DNA of 27,125 nucleotides from a virus. A program made the translations under genes and the position numbers. Shown here piece after piece: positions 9,617 through 25,871 of this stretch. The notes below the pieces were generated by a model. The model worked only from the letters and a program-made list of their open reading frames with translations. It did not search any database and was not told the origin of the DNA. Where the stretch lies: positions 1 to 27,125 of IMG/VR virus record IMGVR_UViG_3300037488_000854; one strand, 5' to 3'. Each line of letters begins with the position of its first letter. Position 1 is the stretch's first letter.

Positions 9617-12049
9617 TTATCGGGGGTCAAATTCTGAGAGATTAAACGAATCAAGTGAATCTTCATTCGATTCAAAGTCAATTGGAGCAGTATTATTTTT
9701 ACGTTGATCAATCAACTTAGATTGCCTACTAGCTTCTTGATCTACTCGCTTATTTTTTGCTTCCTCTTTTTTATCATCTCTTTCAATTAATTTCTGATCG
9801 TCAGCACCTTTTAATTGCATTTGATACTCAAACTCTAATGCCATTAATTCTTTTTTAGCTTCAACTTCAGCTGCCATTTTAGCTATATCAGCTTGTGATT
9901 GAGCTTGAATTACAGCTATCTTAGTTTGTGATTGAGCTTGTAATTCTGCTTGCTTACTTTCTGCCGCTGCTTGTTGAGACTGCATATTAGCTTGCATCTG
10001 GTATTGAGCTTTCATTTGCTCCGCTTGTTCTAACTTCTTAGCTTTGTTTTTACGTTTAAGTTTAAGAAGTTCATTCGCTAACTTTAAGTTTCTTATATGT
10101 CTTAAATCAATAGCGTCTTCAAGATCGATTTGATCTCTACTTAATGCCATTTGGATATTAGCTTCCAATTGTGCTTTTTGTTCTTCGTCAGGTTCTAATT
10201 CGATGAACATTCCAAATGAATAAAGATATAGCTCTTTAATATCCTCAAGTATTGCTACATTGAATTTACCAATCTGCATTGCAAACTCTTCTTTAAAGTC
10301 TGAATGTTCAAGTATGTCAGAAATTCTTAATGAAAGTCCAACAGCTAAGTCTTTAGATATTTTAAGTCCTGCCTTTAATATATGATTAGTAGCTGTATTA
10401 CTGCTTAATGCTGCTAATTTTTGAACTCCGACTAATGCATCAGGATTTGGAGTTGATCCATCTCTAATCTCATTTACTCCGACACAATCTCTTAACATAT
10501 TTAAAAGATTCTGATAATCTCCCCAAAGAGCTGACATCTTAGACTGACCACTGTTTGAAGTAAGCTCTTGAATTGGGATTTTAGCATTGTTATATTCTCC
10601 ATCAGTAGTCTGACTTCTACCAATAACACTACCTGTTTGGAAATAAAGTTTTAACGCTTCTTCTGGTCCATATGCTGCTCCAGTTCCTAAGTCAACTTCA
10701 TTAAGTCCGTCTGCATCAATAAATACTCCGTCAGGAACTATTCTTGACTTGACTTGTTGCATTTTAATAGCTGTCAATTGAAGTTGATCTCCAATTGGAA
10801 TCATTCGTTTTGTGCTAGATTCAATAACTCCCATATACATTTGAGGAGCGTTGAATACATAACTAGGTAAAACTCTTTGAGACGCAGCTTTGGGGCGAAC
10901 CATATTTTTAAGAAGTTCCCATTTCAAAACGATATTGCTTCCTAAAACGATTGCTCCGTCATACCATACGTCGATTACATTGTCTACTCTTTCAAATAGA
11001 TCAGCATCTTCTTTTGATGGGTTGAAATTACCTTCTTTCCTTAGTATTTTAGAACCTCCATTTGCAAGTTTCTTTTTCTTGTAAACGTGTTTGCTTTCAG
11101 TCTTGTAATTGAAATAAAGTATATTTACTATTTCATCATTAAATGCTGAATCATTTACATTATTGTAAGCTGGGAAATGATTTATCCATGCTGAGCCATA
11201 CTGCTTTGCTTCTAATAATTCAGTATCTGTAAGGTTTGGATTTATTTTACGTAGCTCAGTATAATGCACTTGTTTAACTTCTCCAAAGTAAAAACCGTCA
11301 TTGAAATCACCAGCTTTAGTTTGACTCCATACGCAATCTGCCGGATCGACATACTCGACTATTGCTCCTACTGAAGTATTGAAAGAATGTTTTACCGCCC
11401 CAATGCCAATAGTCACTAAGTCATAATTTACTTTAGGTTTGATGTAATCTTTATAATTACTTCCTTCAAGTATAGAGTCAATTGCTGTTTCTTCAGCTAT
11501 TTCAATTGATGGTTTATATTTAAGTTGCATATACAACTCAAGCTCTTCATCTGTTTCTGGAATTTCGTCATGAGGAATGCTGTTAATATCTACCCCGAAT
11601 TGCTCTTTTGTTTGAGCCATAAAATCTTTTGAAGCCATATCGACTTCCACCATATCTTGAAAAAGATTCTTCTTCTCTGCTGACATAATGTCTTGAGATT
11701 CAACTTTTATCTTGTAAAGACGGTCATTCATTCCATTTGTAAGAACATCTACAAATTTTGGAATCACTTTTATAATAGACCAATCTAAATTTAAGTGAGA
11801 CATATCCCCATTGACGGCAAGTAAGTTTTTATACTGCTGAATTGATTGTTCCCCTCTTGCGTACAATCTTGTGTTGTGGAAATCGCTATATTGGTTGTAA
11901 AATTTACATCCACCACCAGTCTGTCTAAACCATTCACTTTCAATAGCTCTTCCAACCTTCAACCCGTAAGCTAGTGTTTTCTTTTCTTCGTCAGTTGCGA
12001 ATTGATCAGGAAATGATAAATTCTTTATATCGATAATTGGTTTCTCCAT
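9617..12049 (-). CDS. Portal protein, 810 aa
   Basis: The portal forms the dodecameric DNA gate at the head vertex. I recognise the N-terminal signature ARGEQSIQQYKNLLAVNGD (64-82) followed by LNLDWSIIKVIPKFVDVL (86-103) and NGMNDR as that of large portals from crAss-like and related phages. The central part has SNYKDYIKPKVNYDLVTIGI and VEYVDPADCVW, the usual stem/wing region. The last 150 or so residues are a long Gln/Ala/Lys coiled coil (about 650-790, with AAESKQAELQAQSQTKIAVI), much longer than in small portals and likely reaching into the head. Its start overlaps the terminase stop as TAATG, so it is coupled to the upstream gene. Confidence 0.85.
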   Translation of the reverse strand: MEKPIIDIKNLSFPDQFATDEEKKTLAYGLKVGRAIESEWFRQTGGGCKFYNQYSDFHNTRLYARGEQSIQQYKNLLAVNGDMSHLNLDWSIIKVIPKFVDVLTNGMNDRLYKIKVESQDIMSAEKKNLFQDMVEVDMASKDFMAQTKEQFGVDINSIPHDEIPETDEELELYMQLKYKPSIEIAEETAIDSILEGSNYKDYIKPKVNYDLVTIGIGAVKHSFNTSVGAIVEYVDPADCVWSQTKAGDFNDGFYFGEVKQVHYTELRKINPNLTDTELLEAKQYGSAWINHFPAYNNVNDSAFNDEIVNILYFNYKTESKHVYKKKKLANGGSKILRKEGNFNPSKEDADLFERVDNVIDVWYDGAIVLGSNIVLKWELLKNMVRPKAASQRVLPSYVFNAPQMYMGVIESSTKRMIPIGDQLQLTAIKMQQVKSRIVPDGVFIDADGLNEVDLGTGAAYGPEEALKLYFQTGSVIGRSQTTDGEYNNAKIPIQELTSNSGQSKMSALWGDYQNLLNMLRDCVGVNEIRDGSTPNPDALVGVQKLAALSSNTATNHILKAGLKISKDLAVGLSLRISDILEHSDFKEEFAMQIGKFNVAILEDIKELYLYSFGMFIELEPDEEQKAQLEANIQMALSRDQIDLEDAIDLRHIRNLKLANELLKLKRKNKAKKLEQAEQMKAQYQMQANMQSQQAAAESKQAELQAQSQTKIAVIQAQSQADIAKMAAEVEAKKELMALEFEYQMQLKGADDQKLIERDDKKEEAKNKRVDQEASRQSKLIDQRKNNTAPIDFESNEDSLDSFNLSEFDPR

Positions 12050-14280
12050 TATTTATTCAATTGACTGCTGTTTCCATCATTGTTGTATCTTGCAAATTTA
12101 ATAATATTTTTCGGTTTTTTTACTTCACTAGCAACAATATGTTTTCTAGTAGCCATAATGGCTAATCCAGAGCTGATTGATGCGTCATATTTGGTCCTAT
12201 TATTTATATCAAATGCAGCCCAATCTTCTAGTGTTCTATTGAAAAACATATCCCCCATACTGCCTGCTTCTCTATAGTGACCCACCTCGTCAATACCTAC
12301 AAACTCATGTACGAATGATTCGATAGATGATGCGTGAGCTTGCTTCATGTCTTCAGAACTATTTGGAACTCCGCCAATTTCTCTTTCAGAGACAGATAAG
12401 TCAGTGAATTTTTTATCAGGTCTGTTCATAGCGAATTTTCTATATCCTCTATTTTTAAAGTGATAAAGTAAACGAGCCTTATTATTTTCAGCAAGCATTG
12501 GCATACCGTAAAACACACAAGCCATCAAAACTTCTTCAAACATTATATCAGCAGTTAACGGTCTATGCACATACTCAAGGAAAAACTGTCCTACAGGTGC
12601 GTTACTCATGTGCCACTTAGTTCTACCGTGTAAAGCTCCCTTTGATCCGCCACCTCCAACAACTCCTGAAATATCATAAGAGTCACATCCAAATGCTCCA
12701 ATATGCTCATTACCTGGATGCCATTGACCATTTACATTTACCTTATTATTTCTCATCTCTATCGGAGGAAGCCACGAAACTAAGAACGGTCCGTTTTTAT
12801 CTGGAGTCCATACAACCTCTGAATCTAATACCCCGTCTTTCCAATGGAAGTATCCCTTTGTAAGAAATTTTTCTTTAACTAAGGAGTCATTGTAATCTAT
12901 TTGTGCGTATATCTTTGTTAAATCAAATAAAGACTGCTTTGCTTCATCTCTGAATGCGTGAGATGTTGTCCTTGGATACTGTCTGTAATGCTCATTTTGA
13001 TCATCTGCATCACCTTTTTTAGCTTCAAGTTCATTGTTCCAATAAGTAATAGCTCCAGTATCTATCATCTCACCATCAATGCCTTCTATCGGGACTCTAG
13101 GATCTTCAATTACTGCATGACCAAATCTATCGATACACCCTTCAAAGTTATGCTCCATTGGGATAAAAAGTGAATATAACCCACTCTTAGTTTGTCCGTT
13201 CTTACTTCTTTTTCTTGGATCTGAATCTAAATACATTTGCTTGTAGTTAGCTCCTCCTTTTGCTAATGCATTAAGTGTTGATCCCATCATACATTTACCA
13301 ATAATTTTTAAACCTAACCTAAGGCAAGTTTTTCTTACTCTCCAACCATTAAGAATGTTGAATGGTTTTTCTAATTTTCCAGACTCATCCTCTATAAGTA
13401 ATTTTAATTTCTCCCCATCATAGGCGTTGTCCGATGTGTTAGACCAGTCAATTGATGTATTAAGACCTTCCTCTTCATCAATTGAATCTAATACCATATT
13501 CTTTTTAGTAATTTTTGAAGATGGTATTCTAAATGCTAGTTCAGTTTTAGGATTCGTAGTACCATCTCTAATTGGAGCGAAGAAAAATGGATAGTTATTC
13601 ATAATTGGAACAACTTTGTCAGTAAACATTATTTTGGCATCACCCCCAGTTTTTGAACATATTCCAATTCTTGAATCTGATAATGAACTACCTATATTAT
13701 TTACTTCAGAAGATGCCATATAAGAGAATCCAGAACGTCTATTCTTAACGTAGCATAATCCATAACATCTATTGTCAGCTTTACATGCTTCCCAATAAAT
13801 AAAAAAAATACGATTTGAATCACGAAAATCAGGAAGTCCAATATCGATTTTAGACCATTGAAGGTACATGTAGTGAGACCCAGTAAGGTAGGTGGCTTCT
13901 CCTTTGTTATTAAAGAAATGACCAAACTCTCTGTTGCGGTATTCCTCTTCTATAAACGGAACGTATTTATGTTTAAAAGCATTATCCATTCGTTCCCAGT
14001 CGAATATCTTCTTTAATCTGGAAAGTTCTTTAGGGTATTCTTTAGGTTTCCAATAGGCTAGTTCGTCCTTTAGTTTTAATCCGCTAGGAGCTTCAGGAAG
14101 TCCGATATGTAATCCTTCTATTTCATAAATATCTCCAACTGTTCCATCTTTTGAAATAACTATAAGGTCACACTCAGCATCATACCCGTACTTCCATTGC
14201 TTTTTCTTATTACGTAAATTCATCTTTGACCGATCTACGTAATCATAAGCTACTCGATATAATGCGTTATCTTTAGACAT
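12049..14280 (-). CDS. terL: Terminase large subunit, 743 aa
   Basis: This is the packaging motor ATPase and nuclease. The ATPase part shows a Walker A-like segment VKNRRSGFSYMAS (178-190), which lacks the classic GKT/S, a Walker B segment KLLIEDESGK (293-302) and a motif III segment GKCMMGSTLN (328-337). The RNase H-like nuclease part shows GCDSYDISGV (531-540, D533 or D536 candidate), an acidic patch around E598 and KYDASISSGLA (697-707, D699). The frame is open upstream to 14382, but I chose ATG at 14280 because the extra 34 residues are read out of the preceding gene, while MSKDNALYR overlaps that gene's stop by 8 bases, like the other junctions here. Its stop overlaps portal's ATG. Confidence 0.9.
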   Translation of the reverse strand: MSKDNALYRVAYDYVDRSKMNLRNKKKQWKYGYDAECDLIVISKDGTVGDIYEIEGLHIGLPEAPSGLKLKDELAYWKPKEYPKELSRLKKIFDWERMDNAFKHKYVPFIEEEYRNREFGHFFNNKGEATYLTGSHYMYLQWSKIDIGLPDFRDSNRIFFIYWEACKADNRCYGLCYVKNRRSGFSYMASSEVNNIGSSLSDSRIGICSKTGGDAKIMFTDKVVPIMNNYPFFFAPIRDGTTNPKTELAFRIPSSKITKKNMVLDSIDEEEGLNTSIDWSNTSDNAYDGEKLKLLIEDESGKLEKPFNILNGWRVRKTCLRLGLKIIGKCMMGSTLNALAKGGANYKQMYLDSDPRKRSKNGQTKSGLYSLFIPMEHNFEGCIDRFGHAVIEDPRVPIEGIDGEMIDTGAITYWNNELEAKKGDADDQNEHYRQYPRTTSHAFRDEAKQSLFDLTKIYAQIDYNDSLVKEKFLTKGYFHWKDGVLDSEVVWTPDKNGPFLVSWLPPIEMRNNKVNVNGQWHPGNEHIGAFGCDSYDISGVVGGGGSKGALHGRTKWHMSNAPVGQFFLEYVHRPLTADIMFEEVLMACVFYGMPMLAENNKARLLYHFKNRGYRKFAMNRPDKKFTDLSVSEREIGGVPNSSEDMKQAHASSIESFVHEFVGIDEVGHYREAGSMGDMFFNRTLEDWAAFDINNRTKYDASISSGLAIMATRKHIVASEVKKPKNIIKFARYNNDGNSSQLNK

Positions 14281-14563
14281 TTTTCTTAGCGTTTGATTCA
14301 GCAAATCTTCCTGATGGAATTTCTTTTCCTTTATGCAGTTCAGCTTCTTCAGCTTTATCTTTCTCATTAGAAATTTTATCAAGCATCTCGATAGCGTCTA
14401 TAAAAGCCAACTTTTTTGCTTGTGCTGCATTCTTCATTTTCTCAGCTGAAATATCAGATCTATTAACTAGGATTGGTGCTTCAAGTATTTTTATTAATTC
14501 ATCCACTCCCTTTTCAGCAGCAGCGATTAATCTAGCTCGTTTTACTTTTAAATCTTCAGACAT
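14273..14563 (-). CDS. Small helical protein, possible small terminase, 96 aa
   Basis: A highly charged, almost wholly alpha-helical protein (KVKRARLIAAAEKGVDELIK, then ISAEKMKNAAQAKKLAFIDA and KISNEKDKAEEAELHKGKE). It lies directly before the large terminase, overlapping it by 8 bases and the upstream gene by 16 bases. Position and size suit a small terminase subunit, which would bind phage DNA and recruit the motor. I see no helix-turn-helix that I can defend, so this is an inference from place. A head-assembly or DNA-binding helper is the alternative. Confidence 0.4.
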   Translation of the reverse strand: MSEDLKVKRARLIAAAEKGVDELIKILEAPILVNRSDISAEKMKNAAQAKKLAFIDAIEMLDKISNEKDKAEEAELHKGKEIPSGRFAESNAKKNV

Positions 14564-15114
14564 AAATTTCTAATATTCATTCTAAATAATCTTCTTTTAT
14601 CTATAAAAAATTCATACTCCATCTCAGGTTGAAATGAAATTGAATCTCCTTTTTTTATTTTTCCATCCTTGGATTCAGGAATATATTCTACCGTTCCCCA
14701 AAGTTCTTCATCAACTCCTAAAGTCATGAATTGTTTTTGCTGTTTCTCAATTGGAGAAATAAAACAATACGGAAATGGAGCTTCCCAATCTGTAGCTTCA
14801 GGCTTCTTATATAGGTAAAATTGCTCTGAGTCAATCAGATAGATATTATCTTTATATTTTGACCAGGAGCTACGTTCTTCACCTTGCATACCGTAATATA
14901 TTCTAAAGACGTTATGATGAACTACAAGTACATCTCCTTTTGAAATTGGACCATCGTAATACATCGGGACTTCAAGTACGGTAGCAAATCTATTGACTGC
15001 TTTATGATCTTCAATCGAAGAGCTAGTCACTAATTTTTTATCTCCGAACTTGATTACGTTGTCATATCTGACATCATTAAGAGGAGATACTATAAAATAA
15101 TATGGTGATACCAT
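14548..15114 (-). CDS. Tandem GroES-like fold protein, 188 aa
   Basis: Two co-chaperonin-like units can be seen. The first (about 4-104) has NRFATVLEVPMYY (41-53) and ISKGDVLVVHHNVF (57-70), matching the GroES 'RGEVLAVG ... VKVGDxVxF' pattern. The second (about 115-188) has WGTVEYIPE (139-147), KIKKGDSISFQPEMEYEF (152-169) and a closing IDKRRLFRMNIRNLCLKI (171-188), matching the GroES C-terminal 'iDgeeylimrexDilAki' strands. Phage proteins of this second type are known as GroES-like. No clear mobile-loop triplet is seen in either unit. Its place, two genes before terminase, suggests a role in folding or building head or packaging proteins; it could also be a structural protein that has kept only the fold. 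Confidence 0.6.
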   Translation of the reverse strand: MVSPYYFIVSPLNDVRYDNVIKFGDKKLVTSSSIEDHKAVNRFATVLEVPMYYDGPISKGDVLVVHHNVFRIYYGMQGEERSSWSKYKDNIYLIDSEQFYLYKKPEATDWEAPFPYCFISPIEKQQKQFMTLGVDEELWGTVEYIPESKDGKIKKGDSISFQPEMEYEFFIDKRRLFRMNIRNLCLKI

Positions 15115-15329
15115 TAAATATCTATTGAATGTTCAACACTAACTGGCATTGTTTTAGAAATTGTTTTCCATCTGACAACTGCTTCGTTTTTTAGAATCCA
15201 AATATCATATCCTTCTTTACTCTTAAGTATTTCACTTACTGAGAAAGTTTGATCCATTACATTTTGACCAACTACATAATGCATTTGCTTGAATGGGTCT
15301 GAACCTACGGATAGTTTTCTGATACTCAT
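15114..15329 (-). CDS. Conserved small phage protein with HYVVGQ motif, 71 aa
   Basis: A small beta-rich protein: IRKLSVGSDPFKQMHYVVGQ (3-22), then YDIWILKNEAVVRWKTISK (41-59) and an NMP-like ending (KTMPVSVEHSIDI). I recall the 'MHYVVGQ' and 'VVxWK' features from short conserved phage proteins found near packaging genes; no function is established. It overlaps its upstream neighbour by 4 bases (ATGA) and its downstream one by TAATG. Confidence 0.55.
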   Translation of the reverse strand: MSIRKLSVGSDPFKQMHYVVGQNVMDQTFSVSEILKSKEGYDIWILKNEAVVRWKTISKTMPVSVEHSIDI

Positions 15330-17846: not shown

Positions 17847-18344
17847 TTATATTTGGTTTATTCTTTTTTTCCATCCTTCAAGTAGAATTTTAGTATTGCA
17901 ATCTACAGGTAAATAACCTTGACTGTCTATCCATTCTAAACAATGTGAAAATGACTCTGAACAAATTTCTTTCTCGTCTTCATTTTTAACAGCTTCTAAT
18001 TTATCTTTATTACCTAATAATTTAGAAATTATATGTCTTGGGTAACGTAAAATAAATAATCTATAATCATAAGGAGTTTCATCAATATGATCATATATAT
18101 TTTGCTTAACATTCTTATAAGTTACAGGTATTTCAAACTCATCGTACTTATAATTATATTTTTTTAACCATGTACTATATTTTCTTATCCTAAATCCATC
18201 GCTTTGGGAATCCGCAATAAATACTTGACCACCCGCAACAACTTTAAAAGCTACATGAGTAATTTTAGATTGTGTAAATAAAGTTATCGCCTTACTTATT
18301 GGAGAATTTCCATAGCAAATTAATGCTGTAATTTCGTCTTTCAT
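17847..18344 (-). CDS. Permuted NlpC/P60 (YiiX-like) papain-fold protein, 165 aa
   Basis: The N-terminal half has ISKAITLFTQSKITHVAFKV (16-35), the 'S.i...t.s..sHvg' element of permuted NlpC/P60 enzymes, with H30 as the likely catalytic His. The second half has DEKEICSESFSHCLEW (123-138), where C128 sits in the 'yvCSelv' position of the nucleophile; PYDYRLF (91-97) is also typical. Permuted members have the His before the Cys, as here. Known members cut amide or thioester bonds, including peptidoglycan peptides. No signal peptide is seen. Its place among lysis genes suggests a second wall enzyme, but a role in the infected cell or in the virion is possible. Confidence 0.65.
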   Translation of the reverse strand: MKDEITALICYGNSPISKAITLFTQSKITHVAFKVVAGGQVFIADSQSDGFRIRKYSTWLKKYNYKYDEFEIPVTYKNVKQNIYDHIDETPYDYRLFILRYPRHIISKLLGNKDKLEAVKNEDEKEICSESFSHCLEWIDSQGYLPVDCNTKILLEGWKKRINQI

Positions 18345-23386: not shown

Positions 23387-23989
23387 ATGCAAATAAAAAA
23401 ACATAGAACTAGAGAAGAGAACGAAGCCCTTCTTAAAGAAAGAAAAAAGATAGTTCATGATACGTCTTCAATGGTCGAGCCAAGAAAAAGAGAAAGGATT
23501 CAAAGATTTGCTCCAATAAATGATATTTTAAAATACTATCGAGTTGTAAGATTCTACACCATGAAAAAGTATCAAATATCTCACTTTGATTTAGAATTTC
23601 TATTCTTCTTTTATTCAGAACAATTATTCAGTAGAAAAGAATTAATGAAAGTGTCTTCTGTATATGGATTTAATGATGAAAAATTTAGAGGTCTTTATAA
23701 AGATGGTTGGTTCATAAAATGGAGAGAACATGCTGGAGGTCGTCAAGCAGCTCTATACGAACTTTCTCACAAAGCTAAAATGATGATAGCTGACTTCTAT
23801 AAACATTTAGACGGAACATTACCTATTCCTACAAATGAAGATGGCTGCTGTATATTTAATAAAGCAGCCATCAAAAGTGAAAAATTACTAGCTGATCATA
23901 TTGTTTTAATGAACAGCAAAAATAAAGCTAAAGTACAAGAGCAAGATCTCGTTGAGAAATCAACCTTAAAGTTTCGCCGGAAATCGTAA
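23387..23989 (+). CDS. Winged-helix-like regulator, 200 aa
   Basis: The only rightward gene. After a very basic N-terminus (1-38), a MarR-like winged-helix layout can be traced: YQISHFDLEFLFFFYSEQLF (about 62-81) as first helices, SRKELMKVSSVYGFNDEKFR (82-101) as the helix-turn-helix, GWFIKWREHAGGRQAALYEL (107-126) as the wing, and SHKAKMMIADFYKHL (127-141) as the dimer-type helix. This is the MarR order of helices, recognition helix, hairpin and 'T.kG' helix. It probably binds DNA and may control the shared divergent promoter region. The tail (about 180-200) is basic and is encoded in sequence that overlaps the end of the GroES gene on the other strand. Specific targets unknown. Confidence 0.6.
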   Translation: MQIKKHRTREENEALLKERKKIVHDTSSMVEPRKRERIQRFAPINDILKYYRVVRFYTMKKYQISHFDLEFLFFFYSEQLFSRKELMKVSSVYGFNDEKFRGLYKDGWFIKWREHAGGRQAALYELSHKAKMMIADFYKHLDGTLPIPTNEDGCCIFNKAAIKSEKLLADHIVLMNSKNKAKVQEQDLVEKSTLKFRRKS

Positions 23990-24200
23990 GGTTATGTCCC
24001 TGAATACTATCGAATATAATTTTCGATCCCACTTCAAGTTTGTCTTTATATTCAACAGCGTGACCCACTAAAACAATCTCGGCTTCCTTCCAATTGTTCG
24101 ATGCCTTCTTTGCGTCCGTCTGTTGGAATTGACCTTTAACTCGTTCGACTTTTAGTTCCGGAGTTTCTCTGATTAAAATGTATGTTCCTATTGCTATCAT
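23928..24200 (-). CDS. groES: Co-chaperonin GroES, phage-encoded, 90 aa
   Basis: The GroES core is clear: EAEIVLVG (39-46) fits 'RGEVLAVG', LEVGSKIIFD (55-64) fits 'VKVGDIVIFN', and ISGETLRLISQRDLALVL (73-90) fits 'iDneevLimsesDILAiV'. Length is close to the usual 95-97. The mobile loop region (about 16-33) reads KVERVKGQFQQTDAKKAS where bacterial GroES has GGIVLTG, so the hydrophobic triplet that docks on GroEL is not recognisable. Its ATG overlaps the groEL stop (TAATG), so the two are made together. The gene order, groEL first, is opposite to the usual bacterial groES-groEL operon. Its 3' end overlaps the regulator gene on the other strand. Confidence 0.8.
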   Translation of the reverse strand: MIAIGTYILIRETPELKVERVKGQFQQTDAKKASNNWKEAEIVLVGHAVEYKDKLEVGSKIIFDSIQGHNLTISGETLRLISQRDLALVL

Positions 24201-25837
24201 TATTCCCTGATGTTACTAATTACCGCAGCAGTCGACATTATCGTCCCTGCCACACTCACTGCATTCTTTAATGCGTTTCTAGTTACTTTCGTTGCGTCAA
24301 TAACACCCATTTCTTCCATCATACCAAACTCCCTAGTCTTAGCGTTGTATCCAAAGCCGTTTGTTTTAGCGTCCGCTATCGTTGGAACAATCTTAGTTAC
24401 ATCAACTCCAGTATTTCTTACGATAGTTAAGAATGGTGCTTGAAGTGCTTCATTCAGTATGTCAAAAGCTGCCATTTTATTTACGTCATTAGAATCGCAC
24501 GTAATCGCTTTCAGTGAGTTAATAAGTGCAATACCACCTCCAGGAGAAATACCAAATTCAATCGCTGACTTAACAGCAAAAACAGCATCCTCAATTCTAT
24601 CTAGAAGTTCCTTTTGTTCAACTTGTGAGTTAGCCCCGACGAAAATAACTCCAACCCCCCCTGAGATATTAGCAATACGTTCATTTAGATTTTTCTTATC
24701 GATGTAAGAATTTGTATGTTTAAGCATTTCTTTTAAATCAGAAACATGTTGTGGTATTCTGTCTACGAATGGAACTAACTCATCATATTCATTTCCGTCT
24801 GCGTCTTCTTTAATTATTACTTGGTCACTCGTATCTCTAACTATAACTGTATAATCCTTCCCTACAACAATCTTTTTAGCTAATCCTAAATCAGCAATCG
24901 AAAGTCCTTGCAAATTATCTCCAGTCTTTTCATTAACAAATGTAGCGTTTAATGCAATACCTAAGTCGTTCATTAAGTCATCCTTAGCATATCCAAATCC
25001 AGGAGGTATAATAACGCAAGCTTTCAGCCCGTTCTCGCGAATGTTCTTGTTTAAGGTAAATAATGCTTCAGGACTAAGTGTTCCGATAATCAATATAGAC
25101 CCGTTTTCACTCATTATATGTTGCAACATTGGCACAAGAACGCTAATATCTTTAATTTCTGTGTCAGTAACTAGTATATAGGAATTTTCAAGGATACACT
25201 CTTGAGTCTTCTGATTATTGACCATAACGTTGCTCACCCAACCTCTTTCAACTTTGATTCCGTTAGTGATCTTTGTGTATGTTTCTGATGACGGACTGTC
25301 TTCGATAGTTACATGTTTTACTTTATCATAAACTCCAGCTACTAGTTTACCGATTTTTGTATCGTTATTTGATGCGATTATAGCTATATTTAAAGTTCTC
25401 TTTTTGGTGATTTTTAAAGATGTTCTTTCAAGTTCTGCTTCTAGTTCGAGTGTATATTCATTTATAAAACGAATAATTTCACTCATATTATATTTTAAAT
25501 CTTCATACGATTCAGCAGCTTCTAGTAATGCCTGAACTAAACAAATTGTCGTTGTTGTACCATCACCTGATGCTGTTACTGAAGCTTCAGCAGCTGACTT
25601 TACCATTGTAGCTGCAAGATCCTCTACAGCGTCTAAAAGATTTACAGACCTTGCAATACTAATGCCATCTTTTGAAATTTTTAAACCTCCAACAATATTC
25701 GCATCTTCTATTAAAGTAGTCCTACCCATCGGTCCGAGTGAAGAACACACTACCTTTGCTATTTTATCAATTCCACTCTTTAATTTTTTTCTTGCTTCAT
25801 CGTCAAAAACGATGTTTTTTGGGATTCTTCCTGCCAT
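24200..25837 (-). CDS. groEL: Chaperonin GroEL, phage-encoded, 545 aa
   Basis: A full-length chaperonin subunit, alignable to E. coli GroEL from end to end. Nucleotide-site motifs are kept: LGPMGR (34-39), SKDGIS (55-60), GDGTTTT (91-97), RIEDA (414-418, holding the Asp that matches E. coli D398) and GVIDATKVTR (511-520). The apical domain (about 190-375) is the most divergent: RGWVSNVM stands where GroEL has RGYLSPYF, and PPGFGYAKDD replaces APGFGDRRK. The protein ends at SNIRE, without the GGM-repeat tail. It probably forms a folding chamber for phage proteins with the adjacent GroES; whether it makes a single or double ring cannot be told. It has its own promoter. Confidence 0.93.
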   Translation of the reverse strand: MAGRIPKNIVFDDEARKKLKSGIDKIAKVVCSSLGPMGRTTLIEDANIVGGLKISKDGISIARSVNLLDAVEDLAATMVKSAAEASVTASGDGTTTTICLVQALLEAAESYEDLKYNMSEIIRFINEYTLELEAELERTSLKITKKRTLNIAIIASNNDTKIGKLVAGVYDKVKHVTIEDSPSSETYTKITNGIKVERGWVSNVMVNNQKTQECILENSYILVTDTEIKDISVLVPMLQHIMSENGSILIIGTLSPEALFTLNKNIRENGLKACVIIPPGFGYAKDDLMNDLGIALNATFVNEKTGDNLQGLSIADLGLAKKIVVGKDYTVIVRDTSDQVIIKEDADGNEYDELVPFVDRIPQHVSDLKEMLKHTNSYIDKKNLNERIANISGGVGVIFVGANSQVEQKELLDRIEDAVFAVKSAIEFGISPGGGIALINSLKAITCDSNDVNKMAAFDILNEALQAPFLTIVRNTGVDVTKIVPTIADAKTNGFGYNAKTREFGMMEEMGVIDATKVTRNALKNAVSVAGTIMSTAAVISNIRE

Positions 25838-25863: not shown

Positions 25864-25871
25864 CAAATATA
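25864..25871 (-). promoter_or_regulatory. Promoter -7 box of the chaperonin operon
   Basis: Exact TATATTTG on the minus strand, 26 bases before ATG at 25837. The -33 region has only CTTA at 19 bases. A 15-base stretch (25864-25878) is identical to one at 15653-15667. Confidence 0.55.

Follow-up and report, generated by a model that had tools for sequence, protein, structure and literature searches.

This phage DNA encodes what we read, with a probability of about 0.77, as a private chaperonin system: an old operon with groEL in first place, a Bacteroidota-type promoter ahead of it and a coupled groES behind it, together with a tandem co-chaperonin encoded elsewhere, and with virion proteins as the probable clients. 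This reading is anchored in the identity, order and conservation of the genes, a conserved promoter box, the monophyly of the phage GroELs, the retained ATP-site residues and the predicted fold of the tandem protein. Within a large phage lineage the groEL-groES pair is common and old, and it is the double GroES that is the less expected part.

By the window we mean the whole stretch of DNA that was analysed, a 27,125-base virus fragment from IMG/VR in which the terminase, portal, capsid-like and other virion proteins are encoded on the same strand. The features discussed below are collected in Table 1.

Table 1. Positions in the window of the chaperonin-related genes, their neighbours and the promoter box
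Feature	Position	Strand	Description
TerL	12049..14382	-	Terminase large subunit; PHROG 6681, 1e-159; 60% identical to MW202828, 43% to elemo, 83% to L019
Tandem Cpn10	14548..15114	-	188 aa; two GroES-like domains, Cpn20-like by predicted fold; upstream of terminase; 1-nt overlap with preceding ORF
Convergent ORF	23387..23989	+	200 aa; PHROG 17028 (function unknown), 2.7e-10; between the pair and ORF 23458-22052
groES	23928..24200	-	Phage GroES (Cpn10); 90-aa ORF; second gene of the pair
groEL	24200..25837	-	Phage GroEL, group I chaperonin; 545 aa, uninterrupted ORF; first gene of the pair
TATATTTG	25864..25871	-	Fits the Bacteroidota -7 box; 26 nt ahead of the groEL start codon

Gene Identification and Arrangement

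Pfam PF00118 (Cpn60_TCP1) matches the window GroEL over residues 26-542 (E=1e-44, 153 bits with a cut-off of 34.3), which is the full-length match expected of a group I chaperonin, and PHROG 5725 (GroEL) matches it at E=1e-110. GroES, which PHROG also recognises, matches Pfam PF00166 (Cpn10) at E=2.7e-5 (24.5 bits, cut-off 21.1); since a sequence search of the PDB with this protein returned no match, fold comparison was used instead. Its AlphaFold (AF2) model, built from 54 relatives (pLDDT 80.5, residues 21-24 disordered), has only Cpn10-, GroES- or gp31-type chains among the PDB matches with E < 0.1, and Foldseek gives an E of about 1e-5 to Cpn10 chains; family model and predicted fold both identify a co-chaperonin.

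An earlier note on this DNA had described a complete, coupled pair, with groEL ahead of groES and a TAATG overlap, and all of this holds: the two ORFs (25837-24200 and 24200-23928) are intact and share one base, in TAATG. The same overlap is found at 12049 (TerL/portal) and at 15114 (before the tandem gene), and it is therefore the usual style of this phage, without special meaning for the pair. The note had also placed the pair apart from the structural operons, which is only partly right: the pair shares its strand with the structural genes and is located some 0.5 kb upstream of ORF 23458-22052, one convergent ORF intervening.

The convergent ORF and the 3' end of groES have 62 nt in common. 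The counterpart of this ORF in the contig L019 (281-880, minus strand; 32% protein identity) has an identical 62-nt overlap with groES.

Promoter

The -7 element of Bacteroidota promoters has the consensus TAnnTTTG, to which TATATTTG conforms. This box is frequent by itself (60 sites within the window), and the support for TATATTTG therefore comes from a conserved position across relatives: in 65 of 88 relatives the 120 nt ahead of groEL contain TAnnTTTG, usually between -23 and -34, with 7.5% expected from shuffling. Taken alone, the window has 13 occurrences of the full -33/-7 Bacteroidota pattern with 7.1 expected, which is near chance, and a scan of it for sigma-70 sites was uninformative (8 sites with 13 expected). 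The proposal that the pair has its own promoter thus draws support from the conserved box, which also points to a Bacteroidota host, and none from the sigma-70 scan.

Occurrence in Other Phages

The pair had been thought uncommon, a view that the databases contradict. GroEL is present in 270 of 50,697 annotated phage records (INPHARED), and scans of viral contigs with a TerL alignment and with a GroEL alignment gave at least 600 matches each; a scan with the single window GroEL sequence found no relative, and alignment-based scans were needed. Because such scans favour query-like sequences, the counts that come from them, here and below, describe this lineage rather than phage GroELs at large. 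The literature agrees: PMC5332604 reports GroEL from 36 Bacteroidetes phage genomes that are relatives of phi38:1, PMC11590407 mentions both GroEL and GroES in Panino, and marine plankton has yielded viral GroELs (Marine et al. 2017, as cited in PMC7185714 and PMC8390657).

Among annotated phages, MW202828 is closest (TerL 60%, GroEL 39-40% identical), followed by 68 Flavobacterium elemo phages and then by Cellulophaga and Maribacter phages. The same order with tight coupling recurs in MW202828, in the 68 elemo phages (the arrangement being inspected in one, the others scored by GroEL and TerL matches) and in about 90 viral loci examined. Among the loci fetched, which include a few duplicates, GroEL comes first in 97 and GroES in 7 (E. 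coli, Callevirus, immuto and a Bacteroides phage among them), and the two genes overlap or lie no more than about 10 nt apart in roughly half. Since groEL is carried by 13 of 13 records with at least 13 kb upstream of TerL, all groEL-less records having less than 12 kb there, it looks like a standing gene of this phage group.

Cellular loci have GroES first in 77 of 79 scorable cases and GroEL first in 2. One of these two is a phage contig (L195, see below), and the other is L261, from a Planctomycetota MAG.

Several known systems can be set beside the window. The Flavobacterium phages vB_FspP_elemo (Elemovirus) share the groEL-groES order, the TAATG overlap, podovirus-like structural genes and a tandem 'chaperonin cpn10' beside TerL, but their GroEL is only 32% and their TerL 43% identical, and their pair lies on the strand opposite the packaging genes. 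MW202828.1 (Podoviridae sp. ctfjg026, a circular genome from Manatee Spring) has groEL, groES, the convergent ORF and the packaging block in the same order, but its GroEL is 39-40% identical and its GroES has a canonical ILL loop. The Cellulophaga phages phi38:1, phi40:1 and Calle (Pervagoviridae) also possess a GroEL, on the sister branch to the window clade, a single GroES and a tandem Cpn10 beside TerL; in these phages, however, GroES lies upstream of GroEL (the bacterial order) with one ORF between them. T4 gp31 is likewise a phage-encoded lid of GroES fold, and is among the fold matches of the GroES model, but T4 is not known to encode a GroEL, and gp31 works with that of the host. Pseudomonas phage EL gp146 is a phage-encoded GroEL-like chaperonin that, unlike the one described here, sits on a distant branch (24% identity), has no known GroES partner and does not bind E. 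coli GroES (PMC7185714).

Origin of the Inverted Operon

Judged by phylogeny and identity, the inverted groEL-groES operon is an old phage trait. In a tree of 95 GroELs, built by a quick method and with long branches, the sequences from GroEL-first phages group together (SH-aLRT 97) to the exclusion of the 35 cellular GroELs sampled, and Callevirus GroEL is sister to this clade (SH-aLRT 88). The window GroEL is 70% identical to that of L099, less than 49% to all others and 33% to that of E. coli; the best non-phage GroEL among the matches listed from 84,980 species genomes reaches at most 37%. A single clade outside the cellular GroELs, with 70% identity to its nearest member and 33% to E. coli, argues that the operon was inherited rather than recently captured, as the earlier note had suspected from the gene order.

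The synteny of the nearest relative (L019/L099) matches that of the window, with identities of 88% for the tandem protein, 85% for the portal and 83% for TerL; groEL (70%) and groES (about 60%) fall below these values. Recent capture of a host groE operon, or an assembly that joins host and phage DNA, has nothing further to recommend it than the presence of a housekeeping-type gene, and we give it practically no credence. A captured operon should combine high identity to one host group with the groES-groEL order, and neither is seen here; GroEL forms its clade apart from the cellular proteins rather than within one host genus; the gene order is shared with independent contigs and with the circular genome MW202828; and GC content is uniform along the window. 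A pseudogene reading was rejected together with capture and chimera.

The claim of a phage-borne pair in a Bacteroidota-type, podovirus-like genome is likewise supported, and the pair appears to have been kept vertically in a large lineage of aquatic Bacteroidota podovirus-like phages. The best match to the window GroEL among those listed from the 84,980 species genomes (41%) is L195, a phage contig binned in a Cytophagales MAG. This contig of 3.4 kb holds a GroEL/GroES pair of the same phage clade and an opposite-strand ORF that resembles the convergent ORF; it is probably a phage contig, and offers a hint of the host.

A Predicted Tandem Co-Chaperonin beside the Terminase

ORF 15114-14548 is a predicted tandem co-chaperonin gene that the earlier note had missed. 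It matches PHROG 13932 ('co-chaperonin GroES') at 1e-17. The best PDB match of its AlphaFold (AF2) model (56 sequences, pLDDT 85.9) is to chain R of 7ekq (194 residues, TM 0.56, E 1.1e-4) and spans the full length of the model; this chain is a tandem co-chaperonin from the Chlamydomonas chloroplast, in complex with ClpP. About 30 further PDB matches are nearly all single Cpn10 chains. The chain contains two Cpn10 folds in the predicted model, rather than in a solved structure, and these are predicted to be fused head to tail as in the chloroplast Cpn20/Cpn21 type (7ekq), to which the phage protein, encoded beside a terminase, is only 11% identical.

The two halves differ in how they are recognised. 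The C half matches the phage GroES profile at 4.6e-6 and has the strand order of GroES (predicted models), whereas profile comparison gave no significant sequence-level Cpn10 match for the N half, which is assigned on its predicted fold only.

All 77 scorable loci have the tandem gene upstream of TerL, in most cases no more than about 1 kb away, and elemo, Panino, Callevirus and Pachyviridae possess it too. The complete Pachyviridae genomes of phi18:3, phi19:3, and phi13:2 retain it, along with a single GroES but without GroEL, and it is therefore the more constant member; across the wider group the tandem gene is constant, single GroES is frequent, and only part of the group has GroEL. GenBank labels genes of this type as cpn10 or GroES, and cpn10 is a listed core gene of Pervagoviridae (PMC8776804). 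The tandem (Cpn20-type) co-chaperonin has been called chloroplast-specific (PMC5780408), and our literature search found no description of a tandem co-chaperonin in phages.

Functional Residues

The nucleotide-binding and hydrolysis residues K51, D52, D87, T89, D398, and D495 (E. coli numbering, used throughout) are all kept in the window GroEL, with S in place of T30, and the nucleotide site is kept in essentially all 97 GroEL clade members. The GGM C-terminal tail is absent from the window GroEL and from all 97 clade members, and the inter-ring contact positions are variable within the clade.

Several positions of the apical face are changed. At the substrate/GroES-binding positions 199, 203, 204, 234, 237, and 259 the window GroEL has the hydrophobic residues W, V, M, V, L, and L, and positions 263/264 are N/K; the changes from E. 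coli include Y203V, F204M, V263N, and V264K. Residue L234 is V in the window and E in 90 of the 97 clade members, and with this exchange for Glu substrate binding in the lineage may differ from that in E. coli.

An apical insertion of about 18 residues (E. coli region 334-345) is present in the window GroEL and missing from L099, its nearest relative.

The GroES mobile loop is present and disordered in the model, but lacks the usual aliphatic (IVL-type) triad, which is replaced by QFQ(Q); the loop reads TFQ(F) in L019, and LLL, LIL or similar in most clade relatives. Given the apical changes and a GroES loop without the triad, docking between GroEL and GroES should not be taken as given: the presence of a partner with a predicted GroES fold is firm, whereas canonical docking is not.

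The combination V234/N263/K264 was found in four phages, three of them with unusual GroES loops, although these are few and related sequences. Either a co-adapted, host-independent lid contact or a weak lid would explain this small sample, and with only four related phages a general covariation between GroEL and the GroES loop is a hint only. Between the window GroES and that of the nearest relative, dN/dS is about 0.15 with dS near saturation; for groEL, dS is saturated and no dN/dS value is therefore given.

Working Model and Alternatives

A short operon behind the Bacteroidota-type promoter would yield both GroEL and GroES; the TAATG overlap would couple groES translation to the end of the leading groEL gene, whose upstream position may result in an excess of GroEL. 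Together the two proteins would form an ATP-driven folding cage for phage proteins with which the host system copes badly or which are too abundant for it, and the candidate clients are virion proteins (capsid, portal, or very large structural proteins); the capsid or neck protein proposed as a substrate in the earlier note is a plausible choice. The tandem protein, made with the packaging genes, could act as a lid, either alternative or mixed, on the phage or the host GroEL; in Pachyviridae it would work with host GroEL. All three proteins most likely fold virion proteins late in infection. Mass spectrometry has detected a related GroEL, phi38:1 gp054, in infected Cellulophaga and in free-virion (lysate) samples (PMC13288928), which speaks to expression and not to function.

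A more daring extension, which we regard as rather doubtful, is that GroES and tandem Cpn10 co-assemble into a mixed ring, for example three tandem proteins plus one GroES (seven domains), as an asymmetric cap for oversized virion proteins. The analogy is to chloroplast Cpn20 and Cpn10, which form mixed seven-domain rings (PMC5780408). Were this so, tandem co-chaperonins would have arisen independently in phages, and the tandem part would be able to use host GroEL where a phage GroEL is missing.

The chief competitor to a lid function for the tandem protein is that it is a virion or packaging component that merely has the GroES fold. We lean against this while granting it some plausibility, as the gene adjoins the terminase, evolves as slowly as terminase and portal, and persists in complete Pachyviridae genomes without GroEL. 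Those same genomes, however, still carry a separate single-domain GroES, which makes co-chaperonins acting on host GroEL the simpler reading; the C-terminal half of the Pachyviridae protein still scores as Cpn10 (E 1e-7), and in phi18:3 a structural gene two genes downstream is marked as detected by virion MS/MS but the cpn10 gene is not.

For the pair itself, one may ask whether GroEL is largely lidless, like the chaperonin of Pseudomonas phage EL, with the neighbouring GroES having drifted to another role or to a weak lid. The loss of the aliphatic triad in the window and in its nearest relative, when nearly all other clade members retain it, would fit, as would N/K at 263/264 in place of two valines and the failure of the EL chaperonin to bind E. 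coli GroES (PMC7185714). We nevertheless consider this unlikely: groES directly follows groEL here, whereas an EL-type system encodes no GroES partner, and both phages, like nearly all relatives, keep an intact, coupled GroES at this position. The low dN/dS of GroES (read with the near-saturated dS) and the retained disordered loop also count against it, and the joint occurrence of V234/N263/K264 with odd loops in three of four phages, few and related as they are, fits co-adaptation as well as loss. Very improbable, finally, is that the phage GroEL, rather than folding phage proteins, mainly targets the host chaperonin through mixed or poisoned rings; both proteins would share one cell and the inter-ring contacts do vary, but mere poisoning would need neither a dedicated GroES nor preserved ATP-site residues.

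Implications

Phage GroELs are known from giant phages and marine surveys, and their lids and clients are largely unstudied. The phage-private chaperonin proposed here would bring two different co-chaperonins, one of them of the tandem type that PMC5780408 holds to be specific to chloroplasts. The lineage is large and culturable, with isolates in elemo, Callevirus, and Pachyviridae, and it offers a natural series, from tandem protein and GroES without GroEL in Pachyviridae to all three elsewhere, in which the roles of these proteins in capsid folding could be separated. The series also bears on how a seven-fold ring can accommodate a lid whose fused domains are even in number.

Other Features of the Window

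The listed TerL ORF has a TTG start and overlaps the upstream ORF by 110 nt. As TerL of relatives is about 743-750 aa long, the true start in the window probably lies 27-35 codons further into the ORF.

Just upstream of the tandem gene is a 71-aa ORF (15114-15329, minus strand) with no family match. An ORF of like place and size is found in L019, and there is also a small ORF in L001 and Panino.

A 165-aa ORF at 17847-18344 (minus strand) has weak matches to PHROG 1128 and to a transglutaminase-like family, and its sequence resembles an NlpC/P60-type hydrolase.
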